A stretch of DNA of 44,277 nucleotides from NCBI GenBank assembly GCA_021325385.1, contig JAJPHH010000156.1, positions 1-44,277 of the forward strand, written 5' to 3'. The notes beneath the pieces were generated by a model. That model searched no databases, was not told where the DNA came from, and saw nothing but the letters and a program-made list of their open reading frames with translations. The translations under genes were made by a program, and so were the position numbers. Origin of the DNA: Alphaproteobacteria bacterium. GTDB taxonomy: Bacteria; Pseudomonadota; Alphaproteobacteria; Rhizobiales; Beijerinckiaceae. Positions 1 through 6,579 of the stretch are shown one piece after another. The stretch's first letter is position 1, and every line of letters begins with the position of its first letter.

Positions 1-57
1 AAAGATAAAGATAAAGATAAAGATAAAGATAAAGACAAAGAAAAGGACAAGGAGAAG
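1..57 (+). repeat. Hexanucleotide tandem repeat encoding a Lys-Asp tract
   Basis: Five exact AAAGAT units (1-30) are followed by degenerate units AAAGAC, AAAGAA, AAGGAC and AAGGAG. They are in frame and encode alternating Lys and Asp/Glu. Exact units at the left edge grading into degenerate units suggest expansion by slippage. The tract is AT-rich against a GC-rich background, and the full repeat number is cut off by the window edge. Confidence 0.9.
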
Positions 58-381
58 CCCGCGACGGCGGAGCCCGCGCCGCCGGCTTACGAGCCTCAAC
101 TCCTGCGCTTGAGCGAAGTCATGGGCGCGCTGACCTATTTGCGCGGGCTTTGCGGCGATGGCGACACTGAAGCTTACCGCGCCAAAATGGCGGCGCTTCT
201 GGCCGCCGAAGCGACGAGCGACGCGCGCAAGGAGCGGCTCGCGGGGGCTTACAATCACGGTTTCCAAGGCTACGCTTTGACGTACCGGACTTGTACGCCG
301 GCGGCGCGGGTGGTGATCGCGCGATTTCTCGATGAAGCGGCGCGGGTGTCGAAAGATTTGGCGAGTCGGTACGGGGGGTGA
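1..381 (+). CDS. TIGR02301-like family protein, 3' part (5' end outside window)
   Basis: The frame is open from base 1, so the start lies upstream of the window. The visible part begins with a Lys/Asp/Glu tract, passes through a Pro/Ala-rich linker, and enters a compact domain of about 90 residues (LSEVMGALTYLRGLCG, then AYNHGFQGYALTYRTCTP). This domain matches my recollection of the TIGR02301 family, small secreted proteins of unknown function in Rhizobiales. Two Cys residues (in GLCG and RTCTP) could form a disulfide. An ATG at 121 lies inside the conserved domain and is not the real start. The family assignment is from memory; no function can be given. Confidence 0.75.
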   Translation, partial: KDKDKDKDKDKDKEKDKEKPATAEPAPPAYEPQLLRLSEVMGALTYLRGLCGDGDTEAYRAKMAALLAAEATSDARKERLAGAYNHGFQGYALTYRTCTPAARVVIARFLDEAARVSKDLASRYGG

Positions 382-566: not shown

Positions 567-1655
567 TCAAGCCGCCCGCTCCGGTCGCGGCCCGACATAC
601 CGCGATTGCGGCCGGATCAGCCGTCCCGACTGCGCCTGCTCGCGCGCATGCGCGATCCAGCCGCCGATCCGGCCCATGGCGAAGATCGCGGTGAAGGCGT
701 CGCGCGGAAAACCCAACGCCTCGAGCAGCAGAGCCGTGTAGAACTCGACATTGGTCTTCAGCGACCGGTTCGGCTTCCGCCGCGCCAGAATCCTGAGCGC
801 CGCCGCTTCGACCGCCTCGGCGAGGGCGAGGCGGCCGTCGCGGTCCGAGCCGGCGCGCGCCAGCCGCCGGGCCGCGCCTTTCAGCGCGTCGGCGCGCGGA
901 TCGCGCGCCCGGTAGACGCGATGGCCGAAACCCATCAGGCGCTCGCCGCTGTCGAGCGCCGCTTCGAGCCAGGCTTCGGCGGCTTCCGGCCGGCCGATTG
1001 CATCCAGCATATCGAGCACCGGGCCCGGCGCGCCGCCATGCAGCGGACCTTTCAGCGCGCTGAGCCCGGCGAGCGCCGACGAGGTGAGGCCGGCTCGCGT
1101 CGAGGCGACGATCCGCGCCGCGAAGGTCGAGGCGTTGAGGCCGTGATCCGAAACCGTGACGAGGTACGTATCGAGCGCGGCCCCCTCTTCGGCGCTCGCA
1201 TCCGGCCGCAGCATGCGCAAGGCGTCGGCGGCGTGGCCGCGTGAGGGATCGGGCCTGATCGGCTCTTGGCCGCGCTTGATGCGGACGATCGCCGGCGTAA
1301 ACACGGCGGGCGCGGCGACGAGCCGCAGCGCCGTGTGAAAGTCGTCGCCGTCGGCGAGTTCGGCGATCAAGGCCCGCGCGGCGTCAACGATCGGCAGGCG
1401 CGCGGCGAGGGCTCGCCTGTTCGCAAGCTGCGGAAAAATTTCCGCCCGAGCGCGGCCCAAGGCGCGGCGCAAGCCGGCCGCGTCGAGCGTTTCGTCGAAA
1501 AAGCCCGACCAGAGCAGCGCGAGCGTCTCTTCGTAAGAGGCGATCCCAGCCAGTTCGTCCAGCGAGCGGCCGCGAATGATCAAGGCGCCGCCGCTGGCGT
1601 CGATATCGGAGAGGGTCGTCTCCGCCGCCACGACATCGTCGAGACCGCTGTTCAT
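567..1655 (-). CDS. Citrate synthase family protein with Glu at the catalytic Asp position
   Basis: A 362-residue citrate-synthase-fold protein, the short bacterial citrate/methylcitrate synthase type, expected to condense oxaloacetate with an acyl-CoA. Visible active-site elements are GPLHGG (His206), GFGHRVYRARDPRA (His245 and the oxaloacetate-binding Arg of DPRA), and NVEFY where the family has NVDFY: the catalytic Asp is Glu304. The C-terminal GGWIAHAREQ signature is intact. The ATG start has GGAG about 7 nt upstream. It is divergent from a second citrate-synthase-like gene 85 bp away. Asp-to-Glu normally weakens citrate synthase strongly, so the true substrate or need for a partner is open. 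A housekeeping gltA is usually longer (about 430 residues), so this is probably not the TCA enzyme. Confidence 0.85.
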   Translation of the reverse strand: MNSGLDDVVAAETTLSDIDASGGALIIRGRSLDELAGIASYEETLALLWSGFFDETLDAAGLRRALGRARAEIFPQLANRRALAARLPIVDAARALIAELADGDDFHTALRLVAAPAVFTPAIVRIKRGQEPIRPDPSRGHAADALRMLRPDASAEEGAALDTYLVTVSDHGLNASTFAARIVASTRAGLTSSALAGLSALKGPLHGGAPGPVLDMLDAIGRPEAAEAWLEAALDSGERLMGFGHRVYRARDPRADALKGAARRLARAGSDRDGRLALAEAVEAAALRILARRKPNRSLKTNVEFYTALLLEALGFPRDAFTAIFAMGRIGGWIAHAREQAQSGRLIRPQSRYVGPRPERAA

Positions 1656-1698
1656 TTTTGATCTCCGTGCTGTTTCGCGCCAGGATCGGCGCCGCTAT

Positions 1699-1712
1699 GA
1701 TTGACGTCAATC
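1699..1712. promoter_or_regulatory. 14-bp perfect palindrome, candidate operator
   Basis: GATTGACGTCAATC is a perfect palindrome in the 85-bp gap between the divergent citrate synthase genes. A second inverted repeat follows at once (1713-1729). The neighbouring product carries a helix-turn-helix domain, so autoregulation is a natural inference. Binding is not shown. Confidence 0.5.
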
Positions 1713-1729
1713 TTGATCCCAATGATCAA
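1713..1729. promoter_or_regulatory. Inverted repeat TTGATC-N5-GATCAA, candidate second operator
   Basis: Six-base arms are separated by CCAAT. The repeat abuts the palindrome at 1699-1712 and ends 11 bases before the ATG of the HTH-citrate synthase gene. The arms share the ATTGA/TCAAT core with the neighbouring palindrome, as expected for two half-overlapping sites for one dimeric regulator. Confidence 0.45.
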
Positions 1730-1740
1730 TATGAGGCGGC

Positions 1741-2919
1741 ATGGCCTGGCTGACGGCGACCGAAGCTCTCGCGGCGCTCGGCGTCGAGCGTCAGACGCTG
1801 TACGCAAATGTCAGCCGCGGACGTATCCGCGCCAAGCCCGATCCCAAGGACCCGCGGCGCAGCCTTTATGATTCGAGCGACGTCAAACGCCTGGCCGGCC
1901 GGCGCGGCGGCCGGCGCTCCGCCGCCGCGATCGCCGCCGAAACGATCGGCTGGGGCGATCCGGTTCTTGCCTCCAGCGTTTCGACCGTCGCCCATGGCCG
2001 CTTGATCTATCGCGGCCGCGACGCGGTCGAACTCGCTCGGTCGGCAACGCTGGAGGAGATCGCGCGCCTCCTATGGCAGGCCGGAGAGGTGGATTTCGAC
2101 GCCGCCCCGTCCCCAACCCAGACGCGCGGCGCGCCAGACCATCCGTTGCGGGCGGCGCTGACCATGCTCGCCGCCCGTGCCGCCGCCGATCCGCCTTCGG
2201 CCGGCCGATCGCGCGCCGCACTCGCGGCCGAGGCCGGTGAACTCGTCGGCGCGCTCGCCGCCGCGCTGCTTGGTCCCGTCCGCGGACCGGCGCCGCTGCA
2301 TCGCCGCGTCGCGGGCGCCTGGCGGGCGCCTTGCGCCGAAGACGTGCTGCGCCGCGCCCTTGTCCTTCTCGCCGATCACGAGCTGAACGCGTCGACTTTC
2401 GCCACTCGGGTCGCGATTTCGACCGGCGCGCCATTGGCGGCGGGCTTGCTCGCCGGGCTTGCGACTTTGTCGGGGCCGCTGCATGGCGGCGCGACCGCCT
2501 CAATTCGCGCTCTGATCGCCGGCGCCGCCCACGCCGGCCCGGCCGCGGCGGCGCGCGACTGGCTGGCGCAAGGCCGGCGGCTGCCGGCCTTCGGCCATCC
2601 GCTCTATCCGAACGGCGATCCGCGCGCCGCCGCTCTCCTCGCCTCGTTCCCGGCGAGGCCGCTCTTTATCGAAACCCGCGCCGCGATCGAAACGCTGACC
2701 GGCGAAGCGCCGAATGTCGATTTCGCCCTCGCGGCACTCGCCGACGCCTTTGATCTGCCGGCCTCGGCGCCGCTGACCCTCTTCGCCCTCGCCCGCTCGG
2801 TCGGCTGGATCGCGCACGCGCTCGAACAAGCCGCGAGCGGCGCTCTCATCCGGCCGCGCGCGAAATATGTCGGCCCGCCTATCCTCCCCCGCGAAGCGGG
2901 GGAGGGGGACCGCGCGTAG
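1741..2919 (+). CDS. Helix-turn-helix/citrate synthase fusion protein
   Basis: A 392-residue protein. Residues 1-55 form an excisionase/MerR-like winged helix-turn-helix (MAWLTATEALAALGVERQTL, then YDSSDVKRLAGR). The rest is a citrate synthase fold. Active-site features are GPLHGG (His248), FGHPLYPNGDPRA (His286, with the usual Arg after it replaced by Pro287) and NVDFA (Asp327 kept, the usual following Tyr replaced by Ala). The C-terminal VGWIAHALEQ is intact. It starts 85 bp from the divergent citrate synthase, with two inverted repeats between them. The last 12 or so residues (ILPREAGEGDRA) are encoded by a multi-hairpin repeat that also holds the stop codon. It may be a metabolite-responsive regulator, a catalytic subunit partnering the divergent gene, or both. 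Confidence 0.85.
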   Translation: MAWLTATEALAALGVERQTLYANVSRGRIRAKPDPKDPRRSLYDSSDVKRLAGRRGGRRSAAAIAAETIGWGDPVLASSVSTVAHGRLIYRGRDAVELARSATLEEIARLLWQAGEVDFDAAPSPTQTRGAPDHPLRAALTMLAARAAADPPSAGRSRAALAAEAGELVGALAAALLGPVRGPAPLHRRVAGAWRAPCAEDVLRRALVLLADHELNASTFATRVAISTGAPLAAGLLAGLATLSGPLHGGATASIRALIAGAAHAGPAAAARDWLAQGRRLPAFGHPLYPNGDPRAAALLASFPARPLFIETRAAIETLTGEAPNVDFALAALADAFDLPASAPLTLFALARSVGWIAHALEQAASGALIRPRAKYVGPPILPREAGEGDRA

Positions 2920-3030: not shown

Positions 3031-3903
3031 TCAGCCCTTCGCCGCCTCTAGGCTCGCCGGCGGCTTCGAATCGTCGGGCACGAAAAAATCGACATGCAGC
3101 TTCTGGCTGGGATCGACGCGGTAGCGATCGAACTCGGTCACGCCGTTCTCGGCGAGGAACGTATCGTCGATCAAGAAATTGCCGGTGAAGCTCTTAGCGT
3201 CTTTCAAGAAGATCAGATAGGCCGCGTCGGCAAGGATTTCCGGCTTGCGCGAAGCGCGCATCAGCGCCTCGCCGCCGAGCAGGTTCTGCACCGCGGCGGT
3301 GGCGATGGTCGTGCGCGGCCACAGCGCGTTGACCGCGACGCCGCGCTTGCGGAATTCGCCGGCGAGGCCGAGGACGACGAGGCTCATGCCGAATTTGGCC
3401 ATCGAATAGCCGGTATGCGGCGCGAACCATTTTTCCTTCATGTCGAGCGGCGGCGACAACATCAATATGTGCGGGTTCTCCGCCTTGAACAGGTACGGCG
3501 CGGCGAGTTTCGAGACCATGAACGTCCCGCGCGCGTTGATCTGGTGCATCAGATCGAAGCGCTTCATCTCAAGCGCCTGACTGTCGGCGAGATTGATCGC
3601 GCTGGCGTTGTTGACGACGATGTCGATCCCGCCGAAGCGCCGCGCCGTCTCCGCCAGCGCGTTGCGCACATTCTCCTCGTCGCGGACGTCGACGACGAGC
3701 GGCAGAGCGTGGCCGCCGGCGGCCTCAATCTCCGCAGCCGCGGTATGGATCGTGCCCGGCAATTTCGGATTGGGCGCGTCGGTCTTGGCGGCGATGGCGA
3801 TATTGGCGCCGTCGCGGGCGGCGCGCAGGGCGATGGCGAGGCCGATGCCGCGCGACGCGCCGGTGATGAATAGGGTTTTGCCTCTCAAGCTTGGCGCGAC
3901 CAT
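3031..3903 (-). CDS. HSDL2-like short-chain dehydrogenase/reductase
   Basis: A 290-residue SDR. The Rossmann cofactor motif is TGASRGIG (14-21), NNAS is at 98-101, and the catalytic residues are Ser150, Tyr166 and Lys170 (YSMAK). The C-terminal half carries the pattern of hydroxysteroid dehydrogenase-like 2 proteins: LWPRTTIATAA, then ILADAAYLI, FTGNFLIDD and a DFFVPDD tail. HSDL2 proteins are linked to fatty-acid metabolism, though the exact substrate is unsettled. GGGGAG lies about 8 nt before the ATG. It is the last gene of a leftward set with an enoyl-CoA isomerase/hydratase and an acyl-CoA dehydrogenase, which suggests oxidation of a 3-hydroxyacyl-CoA or related intermediate. A repeat separates it from the upstream genes, so it may have its own promoter. 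Confidence 0.88.
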   Translation of the reverse strand: MVAPSLRGKTLFITGASRGIGLAIALRAARDGANIAIAAKTDAPNPKLPGTIHTAAAEIEAAGGHALPLVVDVRDEENVRNALAETARRFGGIDIVVNNASAINLADSQALEMKRFDLMHQINARGTFMVSKLAAPYLFKAENPHILMLSPPLDMKEKWFAPHTGYSMAKFGMSLVVLGLAGEFRKRGVAVNALWPRTTIATAAVQNLLGGEALMRASRKPEILADAAYLIFLKDAKSFTGNFLIDDTFLAENGVTEFDRYRVDPSQKLHVDFFVPDDSKPPASLEAAKG

Positions 3904-3921
3904 GTGTCTTCTCCCCTAGCG

Positions 3922-4002
3922 CGTCGTTGCGAGGAGCGAAGCGACGAAGCAATCCAGGAAACGCCGAGGCTCCTGGATTGCTTCGCTCCGCTCGCAATGA
4001 CG
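3922..4002. repeat. REP-like palindromic repeat, copy 1
   Basis: A long imperfect hairpin in the gap between the SDR and enoyl-CoA isomerase genes. The inner arms GAAGCAATCCAGGA and TCCTGGATTGCTTC pair perfectly over 14 bp; the outer parts GCGAGGAGCGAAGCG and CGCTCCGCTCGC pair imperfectly, and the ends read CGTCGTTGC and GCAATGACG. A related copy lies at 30699-30788 and a fragment at 42264-42295, so this is a dispersed family in the genome. Confidence 0.88.
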
Positions 4003-4030
4003 GCGTACCTTTACTGAAGCGGCCTCGGAT

Positions 4031-4801
4031 CTAACATTGCTCACGACGGGCCTTCTTCTGCAGGAAGGCCTGGAATATCGCCCGCGCCTCGGGCGAGCGG
4101 ACCGCCTCGCCGAACGCGACGAGCTCCTCCGCCATCCGCGCTTGCACCGCGCTCGGATCGCCGCGCAGCAATTTCCGCGCCGCGAGCAGAGCGCGGCGCG
4201 GCTTGGCGGCGAGCGCCTTGGCTTTGGCGAGCGCGTGCTCGTAAAGCGCCTCGGTTTCGATCACCGCATTGACCAGCCCCAAACGATGCGCCTCGGTTGC
4301 GTCGAACGGCTCGGCGAGCAGCAGCGCCTCGCTCGCTTTGGCCATGCCGAAGCGTTGCGGGACGAGCAGGGAGGAGGCCGCTTCAGGAACCAGCGCGAGA
4401 TCGACGAAAGGCATTTGGAAACGCGCCGACGGCGCGGCGTAGACGAGGTCGCAGTGAAAGCAGAGCGTCGTCCCGATGCCGATCGCCGGACCCTCGACCG
4501 CGGCGACGAGCGGCTTCTCCAACAGGGGCAGCGCTTGGATGAAGAGGGCGCCGGGCGAGGCGCCCTGGCCCGCCTGAGCGGCGAGGAAGTCGCCGATGTC
4601 GTTGCCGGCGCAGAAGACGCCGCCTTTGCCGCTGATCAGCACGGCCCCGATGGCGTCGTCCCGATTCGCCTCGCCGAGCGCCTCGGTCAGCGCCTGGTAC
4701 ATTGCGCCGGTGATCGCGTTCTTCTTTTCGGGTCGCGCCAAGACGAGATGGAGGATCGCGCCGTCGCGGCGCTTCTCGATAGGTTCGCTCATCGCCGTCA
4801 T
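4031..4801 (-). CDS. Enoyl-CoA hydratase/isomerase family protein, ECI2-type active site
   Basis: A 256-residue crotonase-fold protein acting on unsaturated acyl-CoAs. The oxyanion-hole regions are FCAGNDIGDF (63-72) and EGPAIGIGTT (103-112). The active-site strand reads MPFVDLALVPEAASS (130-144). The first hydratase Glu is replaced by Phe132, while Glu140 sits in the PE position used by delta3,delta2-enoyl-CoA isomerases of the ECI2/PECI type. The sequence therefore favours an isomerase over a hydratase. The start overlaps the stop of the upstream acyl-CoA dehydrogenase by 4 bp (ATGA), showing translational coupling; a second Met at residue 4 is an alternative start. It probably moves double bonds during oxidation of unsaturated acyl chains. 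Confidence 0.88.
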   Translation of the reverse strand: MTAMSEPIEKRRDGAILHLVLARPEKKNAITGAMYQALTEALGEANRDDAIGAVLISGKGGVFCAGNDIGDFLAAQAGQGASPGALFIQALPLLEKPLVAAVEGPAIGIGTTLCFHCDLVYAAPSARFQMPFVDLALVPEAASSLLVPQRFGMAKASEALLLAEPFDATEAHRLGLVNAVIETEALYEHALAKAKALAAKPRRALLAARKLLRGDPSAVQARMAEELVAFGEAVRSPEARAIFQAFLQKKARREQC

Positions 4802-6579
4802 CCCCCGATCGCTTGGTCGAAATCGCCGAGAGCGCCGGCGCCGCTCTCGATCGAAGCAGCGAGGCCCGACGCGGCGGGCAAGAGTTTCTCGGCAAAGAAG
4901 CGCGCCAGGGCGACGCGGCCGAGCTCGCCCGCTTCGCCCTTTGCAGCCTGCGCCTCGGCCGCCAATCCCGCCTTGGCGAGGCAGGCGCCGCCGCGGACCA
5001 GGCCGAACAGGCGAAGGTACGGCGTCGCGCCGGCAAGCGCGTCTTCCGGCTCCGGCGCGGCGCTCATGAAGCGCGTCGCGCGCTCGAACGCGTCGATCGC
5101 CTCGGCGAGCCGCGCCGCGGTCGCGCCGAAGCCGACGCCGTCGCGGGCTGCGACCTGCGCCTGAATCGCCCGCATGTCGGCGATCTCGCGCGCGACCGCC
5201 TGGCCGCCGCCGAGCGGCAATTTGCGCAGGACGAGATCGATCGCCTGGATGCCGTTCGTGCCCTCATAGATCGAAGCGATGCGCGAATCGCGGAAATGCT
5301 GCGCCGCGCCGGTCTCCTCGATATAGCCCATGCCGCCATGGACCTGGATTCCGAGCGAAGCGGCTTCATCGCCGATATCGGTCGAGAACGCCTTGGCGAC
5401 CGGCGTCAGCAAGGCGGCGCGCTGCTCGGCCTGGCGGCGCTGCTCGTCGGTCTTGGCGTGACGGCTCAAATCGATCGCGACCGCGGTCAGATGACATAGG
5501 CCGCGCGCCGCATGGACGAGCGCGCGCATGGTCAACAGCATGCGCTGCACGTCGGGATGCTCGATGATCGGGCTCATGCCGCCATCGCCGCTCTTGCCGC
5601 TGCGGCCCTGCCGCCGCTCGCGGGCGTATGACAGCGCCTGCTGGAGCGCCCGGTCGGCGATGGCGACGCCCTGCAGGCCGACGCCGAGCCGAGCGCTGTT
5701 CATCATCGCAAACATCGCGTTGAGCCCGCGATTCTCTTCGCCGACCAGCCAACCCTTCGCGCCGCCGCCATCGCCATAGATCATCACGCAAGTCGGCGAA
5801 GCGTGAATACCGAGCTTGTGCTCGATCGAGGCGCAGCGCAGATCGTTGCGCTCGCCCGGCGAACCGTCAGGCCGAGGCAGGAATTTCGGCGCGAGGAACA
5901 GCGAGAGGCCGCGCGTGCCGGGCGGAGCGTCGGGCAGGCGGGCGAGGACGAGATGGACGATGTTGTCGGCCATGTCGTGCTCGCCATAGGTGATGAAAAT
6001 CTTCTGGCCGAAAAGGCGGTAGGTCCCGTCGCCGCCCGGCTCGGCCCGCGTCTTCACCGCGTTGAGGTCCGAACCAGCTTGCGGCTCGGTGAGGTTCATC
6101 GTGCCGGTCCATTCGCCGCTGATCAGTTTCGGCAGGTACAAGTCGCGCAAATCCGGCGCGGCGAATTTCGCGATGGCGCTGATCGCGCCTTCACTGAGCA
6201 GCGGGCAGAGCGCGAAGCCGAGCGAGGCGCCGGCCCAGAGTTCGGAGCAGGCGGCGTTGACCGCGTGCGGCAGGCCCATGCCGCCGAATTCCGGCGCGCC
6301 GGTGACGCCGGCCCAGCCGCCGGCCGCCCAGGCGCGATAGGCCTCGCGAAAGCCTTTCGGCGTTGTCACGCCGCCGTTCTCGTATTTTGCGCCTTCGAGG
6401 TCGCCGACGCGATTGAGCGGCGCGATGGCCTCCGTCGCGAAGCGGCCGGCCTCCTCGATCACCGAGGCGGCGTCAGCGGCGTCGAGCTCGCCGAACAGGC
6501 CGGCCGCGATCGCTTCGTTCAGGCCGGCGACGTGGTTGAGCGAGAACAGGATGTCCGAGACGGGCGCGCGGTAGGTCAT
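4798..6579 (-). CDS. Acyl-CoA dehydrogenase, long (about 590-residue) type
   Basis: A 593-residue FAD-dependent acyl-CoA dehydrogenase. The N-terminal extension (MTYRAPVSDILFSLNHVAG) and the C-terminal extra helical domain are typical of the long class that includes FadE5-like and DmdC-like enzymes. Flavin and substrate motifs such as TMNLTEPQAGSDL and GIQVHGGMGYIEETGAAQ are visible, and the catalytic base is Glu439 in YEGTNGIQ. GAGGGAA precedes the ATG. It heads a leftward operon with an enoyl-CoA isomerase/hydratase and an HSDL2-like SDR. Acyl chain length cannot be read from the sequence; DmdC-type 3-methylmercaptopropionyl-CoA activity is possible but has no support from neighbours. Confidence 0.92.
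   Translation of the reverse strand: MTYRAPVSDILFSLNHVAGLNEAIAAGLFGELDAADAASVIEEAGRFATEAIAPLNRVGDLEGAKYENGGVTTPKGFREAYRAWAAGGWAGVTGAPEFGGMGLPHAVNAACSELWAGASLGFALCPLLSEGAISAIAKFAAPDLRDLYLPKLISGEWTGTMNLTEPQAGSDLNAVKTRAEPGGDGTYRLFGQKIFITYGEHDMADNIVHLVLARLPDAPPGTRGLSLFLAPKFLPRPDGSPGERNDLRCASIEHKLGIHASPTCVMIYGDGGGAKGWLVGEENRGLNAMFAMMNSARLGVGLQGVAIADRALQQALSYARERRQGRSGKSGDGGMSPIIEHPDVQRMLLTMRALVHAARGLCHLTAVAIDLSRHAKTDEQRRQAEQRAALLTPVAKAFSTDIGDEAASLGIQVHGGMGYIEETGAAQHFRDSRIASIYEGTNGIQAIDLVLRKLPLGGGQAVAREIADMRAIQAQVAARDGVGFGATAARLAEAIDAFERATRFMSAAPEPEDALAGATPYLRLFGLVRGGACLAKAGLAAEAQAAKGEAGELGRVALARFFAEKLLPAASGLAASIESGAGALGDFDQAIGG

Follow-up and report, generated by a model that had tools for sequence, protein, structure and literature searches.

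MocR/GabR-type regulators combine a GntR winged helix with an aminotransferase fold, and MerR proteins carry a dimerizing C-terminal coiled coil behind their DNA-binding head. Citrate synthases are dimers or larger assemblies, in which arginines bind the carboxylate groups of both oxaloacetate and citrate. We analyzed a 44,277-bp stretch of DNA from an alphaproteobacterium of the Beijerinckiaceae (assembly GCA_021325385.1, contig JAJPHH010000156.1), in which a gene for a citrate synthase of the PRK12350 family is transcribed divergently from a gene for a protein that joins a helix-turn-helix (HTH) head to a citrate-synthase fold. This protein is called HTH-CS below, and "the window" is the whole stretch, which is a complete contig (G000:C102 in our numbering) of a 5.35-Mb genome. 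Sequence comparison suggests that HTH-CS is very likely a local DNA-binding regulator.

In architecture, HTH-CS resembles the MocR/GabR group, with an HTH joined to a dimeric enzyme fold that retains its ligand pocket and with a gene often divergent to its target. The HTH family, the enzyme fold and the presumed ligand class are different, and the likeness drawn here is one of architecture. With the MerR family, for example SoxR, HTH-CS has in common MerR_1 matches in 17/20 heads (all 20 match HTH_17) and a symmetric predicted operator embedded in a promoter, whereas the citrate-synthase fold replaces the coiled coil and the candidate target promoters have a spacer of 17 bp, not the 19–20 bp found between the -35 and -10 elements of MerR activators. 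Judged from its predicted structure, HTH-CS falls outside the MerR family when this is strictly defined. The CitA structures 2c6x and 8s9d share its fold (Foldseek TM about 0.7), and the leftward partner is itself a PRK12350/CitA member; HTH-CS differs from that group in its extra winged helix, its sub-cut-off score, its own clade and a shorter arginine-to-aspartate segment.

A further comparison is offered by PrpR, which is of the Fis type in Salmonella, the GntR type in Pseudomonas aeruginosa and presumably the Fis type in Xanthomonas citri. In Pseudoxanthomonas, Luteimonas and Stenotrophomonas loci, the position next to prpB(C) where prpR is normally found is taken by HTH-CS, in divergent orientation. 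The PrpR operators differ from the HTH-CS dyad: they are given as GTTGCAA-N2-TTGCAAC for X. citri (PMC12153269) and ATTGTCGACAAT for P. aeruginosa (PMC9765439). Within the locus stretches of 12 HTH-CS/prp-type loci, the rest of the genomes being unsearched, neither a sigma-54-type open reading frame (two motifs) nor TTGCAA-N2-TTGCAA was found. In Streptomyces coelicolor, citA3 and citA4 (SCO5831/SCO5832) share an intergenic region that is bound by MtrA (PMC12323332). That pair may be an actinobacterial version of the HTH-CS/citrate synthase pair. Among the literature matches listed, no title or abstract opening dealt with a regulatory role for a citrate synthase fused to an HTH, subscription literature being thinly covered. 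A study that compared malonate and propionate regulation (J. Bacteriol., 2012) is said to have described four new regulators and may already cover the prp-linked branch.

The two citrate-synthase-fold proteins

The body of HTH-CS belongs to the Pfam family Citrate_synt (PF00285; 180.9 bits against a gathering cut-off of 27, residues 74–373), and all 50 matches listed by Foldseek for its model were citrate or methylcitrate synthases. It scored above the cut-off in none of the 20 NCBIfam citrate synthase models listed, the best values being 145.4 bits against 421.3 (TIGR01800) and 140.8 bits against 332 (NF009005). The N-terminal heads of the window protein and 19 relatives matched HTH_17 in 20/20, MerR_1 in 17/20 and MerR in 15/20 cases at E≤0.01. 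In an AlphaFold2 model built from 81 sequences (mean pLDDT 91.2), residues 6–55 of the head run helix, helix, two strands and helix. The pLDDT values were 93–96 in the blocks of residues 1–50, 72 in block 51–60 and 55 in block 61–70, which is the linker before the citrate synthase body. Because 20/20 heads match HTH_17 and 17/20 match MerR_1, and the model has the fold of such a head, sequence and model together indicate a genuine HTH, as the original prediction had it, even though the window protein itself scores weakly. In a quick tree of 76 rows, HTH-CS, PRK12350 and PrpC formed three separate clades; HTH-CS is therefore not a recent copy of its neighbor. A DNA-binding-type head and an effector domain in a single chain, together with a conserved symmetric predicted operator at its own and the target promoter, correspond to a one-component regulator.

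The leftward protein scored 324.9 bits for Pfam Citrate_synt and 437.5 bits for NF009005/PRK12350, above the curated cut-off of 332, and is a member of that family. Among PRK12350 rows (n=23), the active-site residues H171, H206, H245, R254, E304, R329 and R348 are invariant. The original prediction had correctly given the coordinates and strands of the two divergent genes and their residues (Glu304 and His245-Arg246 in the leftward protein; Asp327, Pro287 after His286 and Ala329 after NVDF in the rightward one), and had read the substitutions as complementary lesions. That reading did not hold. Glutamate at the place of Glu304 is the norm among the partners (59/60 rows, the remaining row being a gap; 23/23 in the smaller alignment), and it stands at the same place in the alignments to Bacillus subtilis CitA 2c6x (NVEFY) and to 8s9d (NVEFW), which the Foldseek listing names as Mycobacterium tuberculosis CitA; the third alignment shown, 6abx, has aspartate. 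Since overexpression of CitA (Rv0889c) led to a higher flux of acetate to CO2 (PMC3101192), the glutamate form is probably a working enzyme.

The residue after the active-site histidine H286 varies among HTH-CS (Pro in 44/81), and proline occupies this place in 10/10 PrpC rows from HTH-CS loci, one of which (the L074 pair) passes the methylcitrate synthase equivalog model with 724.8 bits against 550. In HTH-CS, H213, H248, H286, R295, D327, R352 and R373 are kept in 79–81 of 81 rows. Across the larger set of 121 relatives, the catalytic residues H248, H286 and D327 are kept in 115, 113 and 113, and the arginines of the carboxylate pocket in all (R295, R352, R371) or in 120 (R373). HTH-CS and PRK12350 thus each hold a full active-site residue set alone, and the residues of HTH-CS are alike whether the neighbor is PRK12350, a CoA-transferase or prpBC. 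The segment from R295 to D327 spans 31–42 residues in HTH-CS and 46–57 in 59/60 partner rows (GltA 49, PrpC 42), and this shortening may mean that the acyl-CoA side is altered. HTH-CS has no basic residue at the equivalent of partner R251; this was considered as proof of lost CoA binding and was dropped, since PrpC rows also lack the residue (10/10).

Genomic pairing and neighbors of HTH-CS

The order sample comprised 199 genomes, with HTH-CS counted when full-length at E<1e-50 and PRK12350 at E<1e-140 (next match 1.6e-78); a divergent, near-full-length HTH-CS (G183:C205:39546-40721, E 5.4e-25, 33% identity, 442-aa frame) was left out of these counts. HTH-CS was present in 33 genomes and PRK12350 in 31, and all 31 PRK12350 genes adjoined HTH-CS divergently. 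This layout was seen in 28 of 30 loci examined and, by coordinates, in G041, G081 and G116, while the remaining two of the 30 loci (L025 and L028) are those of the two HTH-CS genomes without PRK12350 (G087 and G093). The pairing is far beyond chance.

Wider samples took in 349 genomes of the phylum, larger regions and a scan of named genomes. The 121 HTH-CS consist of the window protein, those of 40 loci (20 mostly picked as unpaired or distant, 20 paired) and the best 80 of 596 confirmed candidates, and the class proportions among them are not population frequencies. They come from Pseudomonadota, Chloroflexota, Acidobacteriota, Gemmatimonadota and Myxococcota-labelled genomes. Neighbors were labelled by BLAST against one or two references per gene type and by hand: PRK12350 adjoins HTH-CS in 60 cases, a class III CoA-transferase (PF02515) in 34, prpB-prpC in 11, a cation-efflux gene in 5 and other genes in 11, one row of the last class (L081) sitting among prpBC-linked rows. 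PRK12350 is separated from HTH-CS by one gene in L144, L152 and L168, and in L144 and L152 this gene encodes a pyridoxal phosphate (PLP)-dependent enzyme. The one prpB-prpC pair tested (L074) encodes an NCBIfam methylisocitrate lyase and methylcitrate synthase. Other-class neighbors include a TctC receptor (L071), a 2-hydroxyacid dehydrogenase (L077), a peptidase (L141) and an MFS exporter (L174), and in Bradyrhizobium sp. NAS80.1 a citrate:proton symporter gene (L114, 977-2494; TIGR00784, 273.8 bits against 259.7) is divergent from HTH-CS.

Targets have thus been switched within the family. In a quick tree of all 121 HTH-CS, the starred branches require at least four changes in the linkage to the CoA-transferase, and a CoA-transferase-linked row from Ewingella (L178) groups with the window HTH-CS in a starred set of nine rows (99). 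The class III CoA-transferases at these loci have long frames (463–525 aa); in L065 (6086-7570), L076 (5821-7293) and L080 (8558-9994), about 220–235 residues precede the match to approximately positions 1–205 of PF02515, and those of L065, L080 and L178 lie below every NCBIfam cut-off, an atypical and so far unnamed type of CoA-transferase. A plasmid search gave 3 records. HTH-CS lies on an Ewingella plasmid (L186, NZ_CP048244.1), adjoining a CoA transferase gene, and on a Caballeronia megaplasmid (L187, NZ_CP049317.1), adjoining a divergent DinB-family gene, with the predicted operator present in both. The unit of HTH-CS and operator can therefore travel.

These counts bear on the proposal that the two chains form a heteromeric citrate synthase and complete each other's active sites. 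The invariable adjacency of PRK12350 to HTH-CS in the order sample agrees with it, and both proteins keep the C-terminal IRP arginine, which probably reaches the active site of the other chain. However, 61/121 HTH-CS are not linked to PRK12350 (in a set partly chosen for such cases), and PRK12350 was not found in any of the 17 tested genomes with an unlinked HTH-CS (best E 2.9e-64, within the GltA/PrpC range), a test that covered genomes from sources other than the named-genome scan. Co-occurrence is thus not obligate, and the residues are the same in linked and unlinked proteins. The original prediction had proposed to see whether the two genes always co-occur with these substitutions: this was so from the side of PRK12350 in the order sample, but HTH-CS is often found apart with the same residues. 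The genes being often apart therefore removes the heteromer, which we regard as extremely improbable, and not the regulator.

A predicted operator and a candidate promoter

We searched 220 bp upstream of each of the 121 HTH-CS genes for dyads. The exact dyad TCAA-N2-TTGA was present in 111/121 regions, against a mean of 0.4 over five shuffled sets (approximately dinucleotide-preserving; shuffled sequences could be up to about 10% shorter). The aligned sites read gTCAATcTTGATtaa..taATCAAtaT, i.e. TCAA-N2-TTGAT-N7-ATCAA, and in several copies from other phyla the second spacer is one base shorter. Sorted by neighbor, the dyad was found in 58/60 PRK12350, 34/34 CoA-transferase, 11/11 prpBC, 8/11 other and 0/5 cation-efflux cases. 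In all 1,585,321 bases of the loci, the full motif gave 97 matches, 96 of them within 220 bp upstream of HTH-CS, and a relaxed motif gave 115, with 112 upstream of HTH-CS and 3 elsewhere. Displaced sites were seen in L144 and L152, in the gap before the intervening PLP-dependent enzyme gene, facing PRK12350, and in L078, where the site is 2.9 kb away from HTH-CS and precedes a gene for a 2-hydroxyacid dehydrogenase, the same gene that is the direct neighbor in L077. All three fit a target promoter.

The motif is also specific on the scale of genomes. The window genome has a single match, in the divergent gap. Among 38 genomes chosen for holding HTH-CS, 28 strict copies occurred in 27 genomes, 27/28 of them at HTH-CS loci, and the pattern written backwards had 0 matches. 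In the 11 genomes without a strict site, a short dyad was present in G050, G188, G099, G085 and G215 and a one-mismatch copy in G431; in G468, G216, G480, G328 and G245, neither a strict site nor a short dyad was seen.

The element might instead be a promoter or the site of another regulator, and HTH-CS an enzyme with an inert HTH. In favor of this, TTGA(T/C), the half-site, also has the form of a -35 element, and the citA3-citA4 gap of S. coelicolor is bound by another regulator, MtrA (PMC12323332). The 23-bp pattern, however, has symmetry and a frequency of about one copy per genome, and all copies but one lie at HTH-CS loci. It follows HTH-CS across targets, marks the displaced targets in L078, L144 and L152, and is absent in L067–L070 and L072, where HTH-CS itself diverged. 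We therefore consider a foreign site very unlikely and infer that HTH-CS itself binds the element. The suggestion in the original prediction of a dedicated citrate-synthase-fold sensor that controls the pair is strongly supported by the unique predicted operator in the gap and by the same dyad beside other targets.

Read in the direction of the divergent gene, the operator TTGA precedes a -10-like hexamer, with at least 3/6 matches to TATAAT at a spacer of 17 in 69/111 cases, compared to 21/111 at 16 and 9/111 at 18. The window candidate promoter, TTGACG-N17-GATCCT, has 8/12 consensus bases and its -35 lies inside the operator, while a promoter scan of 1600-1800 gave nothing above threshold. 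This candidate promoter would be weak alone, and the 17-bp spacing appears as a family-wide tendency. Since a protein on the operator would cover the -35 element, and the 17-bp spacer is unlike that of MerR activators, repression is the simplest reading, and HTH-CS likely represses.

Signal, catalysis and implications

We propose that HTH-CS is a one-component transcription regulator whose MerR-like winged helix would bind TCAA-N2-TTGAT-N7-ATCAA over the promoter or promoters of the gap, while the citrate-synthase-fold domain would hold the heads together and act as the sensor. Since the carboxylate-binding pocket is kept, a small tri- or dicarboxylate is the most probable ligand on which it would close. 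Apo-HTH-CS most likely represses, with the inner TTGA of the operator serving as the target -35 at a 17-bp spacer, and would be released on binding its ligand. The only target in this genome would be the neighboring PRK12350 citrate synthase gene, in addition to HTH-CS itself. As a whole, this account of a local, probably repressing regulator that senses a citrate-like acid or oxaloacetate through a citrate-synthase fold is one that we hold with good confidence.

Our best guess for the signal is citrate, 2-methylcitrate or oxaloacetate, because the arginine pocket is kept and several targets make or import citrate-like acids; the citrate-linked ones are PRK12350, prpBC, the citrate:proton symporter (L114) and the TctC receptor (L071). 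PMC9765439 records 2-methylcitrate as the signal for other, unrelated PrpR proteins. L114 is a good case for finding the ligand. The HTH-CS at this locus has H286 and D327 replaced.

The preserved catalysis-related residues allow a second account, in which HTH-CS is a trigger enzyme: besides regulating, it would have kept the activity of a (methyl)citrate synthase or of a related Claisen enzyme, with turnover or substrate occupancy setting its affinity for DNA. The two histidines and the aspartate, kept in 113–115/121 and 79–81/81 beside a full carboxylate pocket, speak for it. The short R295-D327 segment, with an acyl-CoA side that may be altered, speaks against it, yet PrpC also has 42 residues here. 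Furthermore, L067–L072 have two or three catalytic residues (His/Asp) replaced while retaining R295, R352 and R371, one or two are changed in L084, L114 and L162, and all are still HTH-linked. We consider a trigger enzyme unlikely. Similarly doubtful is the bolder version, a DNA-bound enzyme that condenses or cleaves a citrate-like compound on its operator, with the catalytic cycle (open, oxaloacetate-closed, citrate-bound) as the switch, and that has been plugged with its operator before citrate synthase, methylcitrate-cycle, CoA-transferase and citrate-transport genes in several phyla. If it were true, pure sensors would have arisen from it, namely the catalytically dead branch that adjoins cation-efflux, TctC and MipA genes. 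L067–L070 (G301, G468, G216 and G480), L071 and L072 adjoin genes of these three kinds. All six have lost catalytic His/Asp residues. L071 retains the short dyad, and L067–L070 and L072, which lack the operator, may read another site and signal.

Several results weigh against the proposed sensor-repressor. The HTH_17 match of the window protein (residues 3–52) reaches 21.1 bits, below the Pfam cut-off of 27, and a profile of the HTH-CS heads had no significant match in the PDB (best SoxR, E 0.044). Ten of the 121 HTH-CS lack the dyad in the 220 bp upstream: L078, L144 and L152 have a displaced site, L077 has a copy with one mismatch, and L067–L070, L072 and L084 have none. One strict copy (G301:C1:1082750-1082772) lies away from HTH-CS loci. 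The catalytic residues are mostly kept, which a pure sensor would not need, and the CoA-transferase, cation-efflux, MFS, peptidase and DinB-type neighbors have no obvious link to citrate. According to PMC9765439, all analyzed Xanthomonadales rely for propionate on a PrpR of the Fis type, and in the HTH-CS/prp genomes its gene could be outside the stretches searched. Finally, the PrpR of X. citri, a repressor of the prp operon encoded upstream of prpB, gave no response to 2-methylcitrate (PMC12153269), and the ligand is therefore not readable from the pathway. As to the stray copy in G301, the HTH-CS of that genome is of the decayed type, and the copy may be a chance match or a relic target.

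The features of the locus are collected in Table 1. Outside the window, the genome encodes two more proteins with a citrate-synthase fold. One, on C173, is full-length; the other, on C69 and the fourth in the genome, is of the citryl-CoA lyase type and was set aside. At the start of the window (1-381), a DUF2385 protein is cut by the contig start, with an alternating Lys-Asp/Glu run preceding DUF2385. Past HTH-CS, the minus strand of 3031-6579 carries short-chain dehydrogenase, enoyl-CoA hydratase and acyl-CoA dehydrogenase genes. One frame in the first 12 kb (family 19) has relatives in just 2 other neighborhoods. A larger conserved operon was considered and dropped: the citrate-synthase fold apart, every family occurred in at most 8/41 neighborhoods.

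Table 1. Coordinates of the divergent HTH-CS/citrate synthase locus in the window
Feature	Position	Strand	Remarks
PRK12350-type citrate synthase, 362 aa, divergent target gene	567-1655	-	Pfam and NCBIfam scores; Glu304 at the usual place of the catalytic Asp
Divergent intergenic region, 85 bp	1656-1740	.	Gap between citrate synthase gene and HTH-CS
Candidate promoter of the citrate synthase gene	1682-1710	-	-35 TTGACG 1705-1710, 17-bp spacer, -10 GATCCT 1682-1687
Putative operator core TCAATCTTGATCCCAATGATCAA (TCAA-N2-TTGAT-N7-ATCAA)	1707-1729	+	Sole exact copy in the 5.35-Mb assembly; symmetric context ~1701-1732
HTH-CS, winged helix and citrate-synthase fold, 392 aa, proposed local transcription regulator	1741-2919	+	
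HTH-CS N-terminal MerR/HTH_17-like winged helix, residues 1-56	1741-1908	+	Motif TLYA(Y/N)VSRG
HTH-CS citrate-synthase-fold domain, residues 74-373	1960-2859	+	Conserved H213, H248, H286, R295, D327, R352, R371, R373

The original prediction was thus right in what it observed and wrong in reading lesions, and its sensor reading is strongly supported and reaches further than it had suggested. Databases may list a widespread regulator under the name of an enzyme: the one annotated record examined, WP_185690305.1 (the Ewingella plasmid HTH-CS), is entered as 'citrate synthase'. If the proposed regulator is confirmed, the citrate synthase fold would be the sensor of a transcription-factor family, and its operator, at about one site per genome, would be specific enough to name the target in a carrier genome. 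HTH-CS would also be a ready biosensor for citrate, methylcitrate or oxaloacetate, and would allow a direct test of how the domain closure of an enzyme can be made to control genes.

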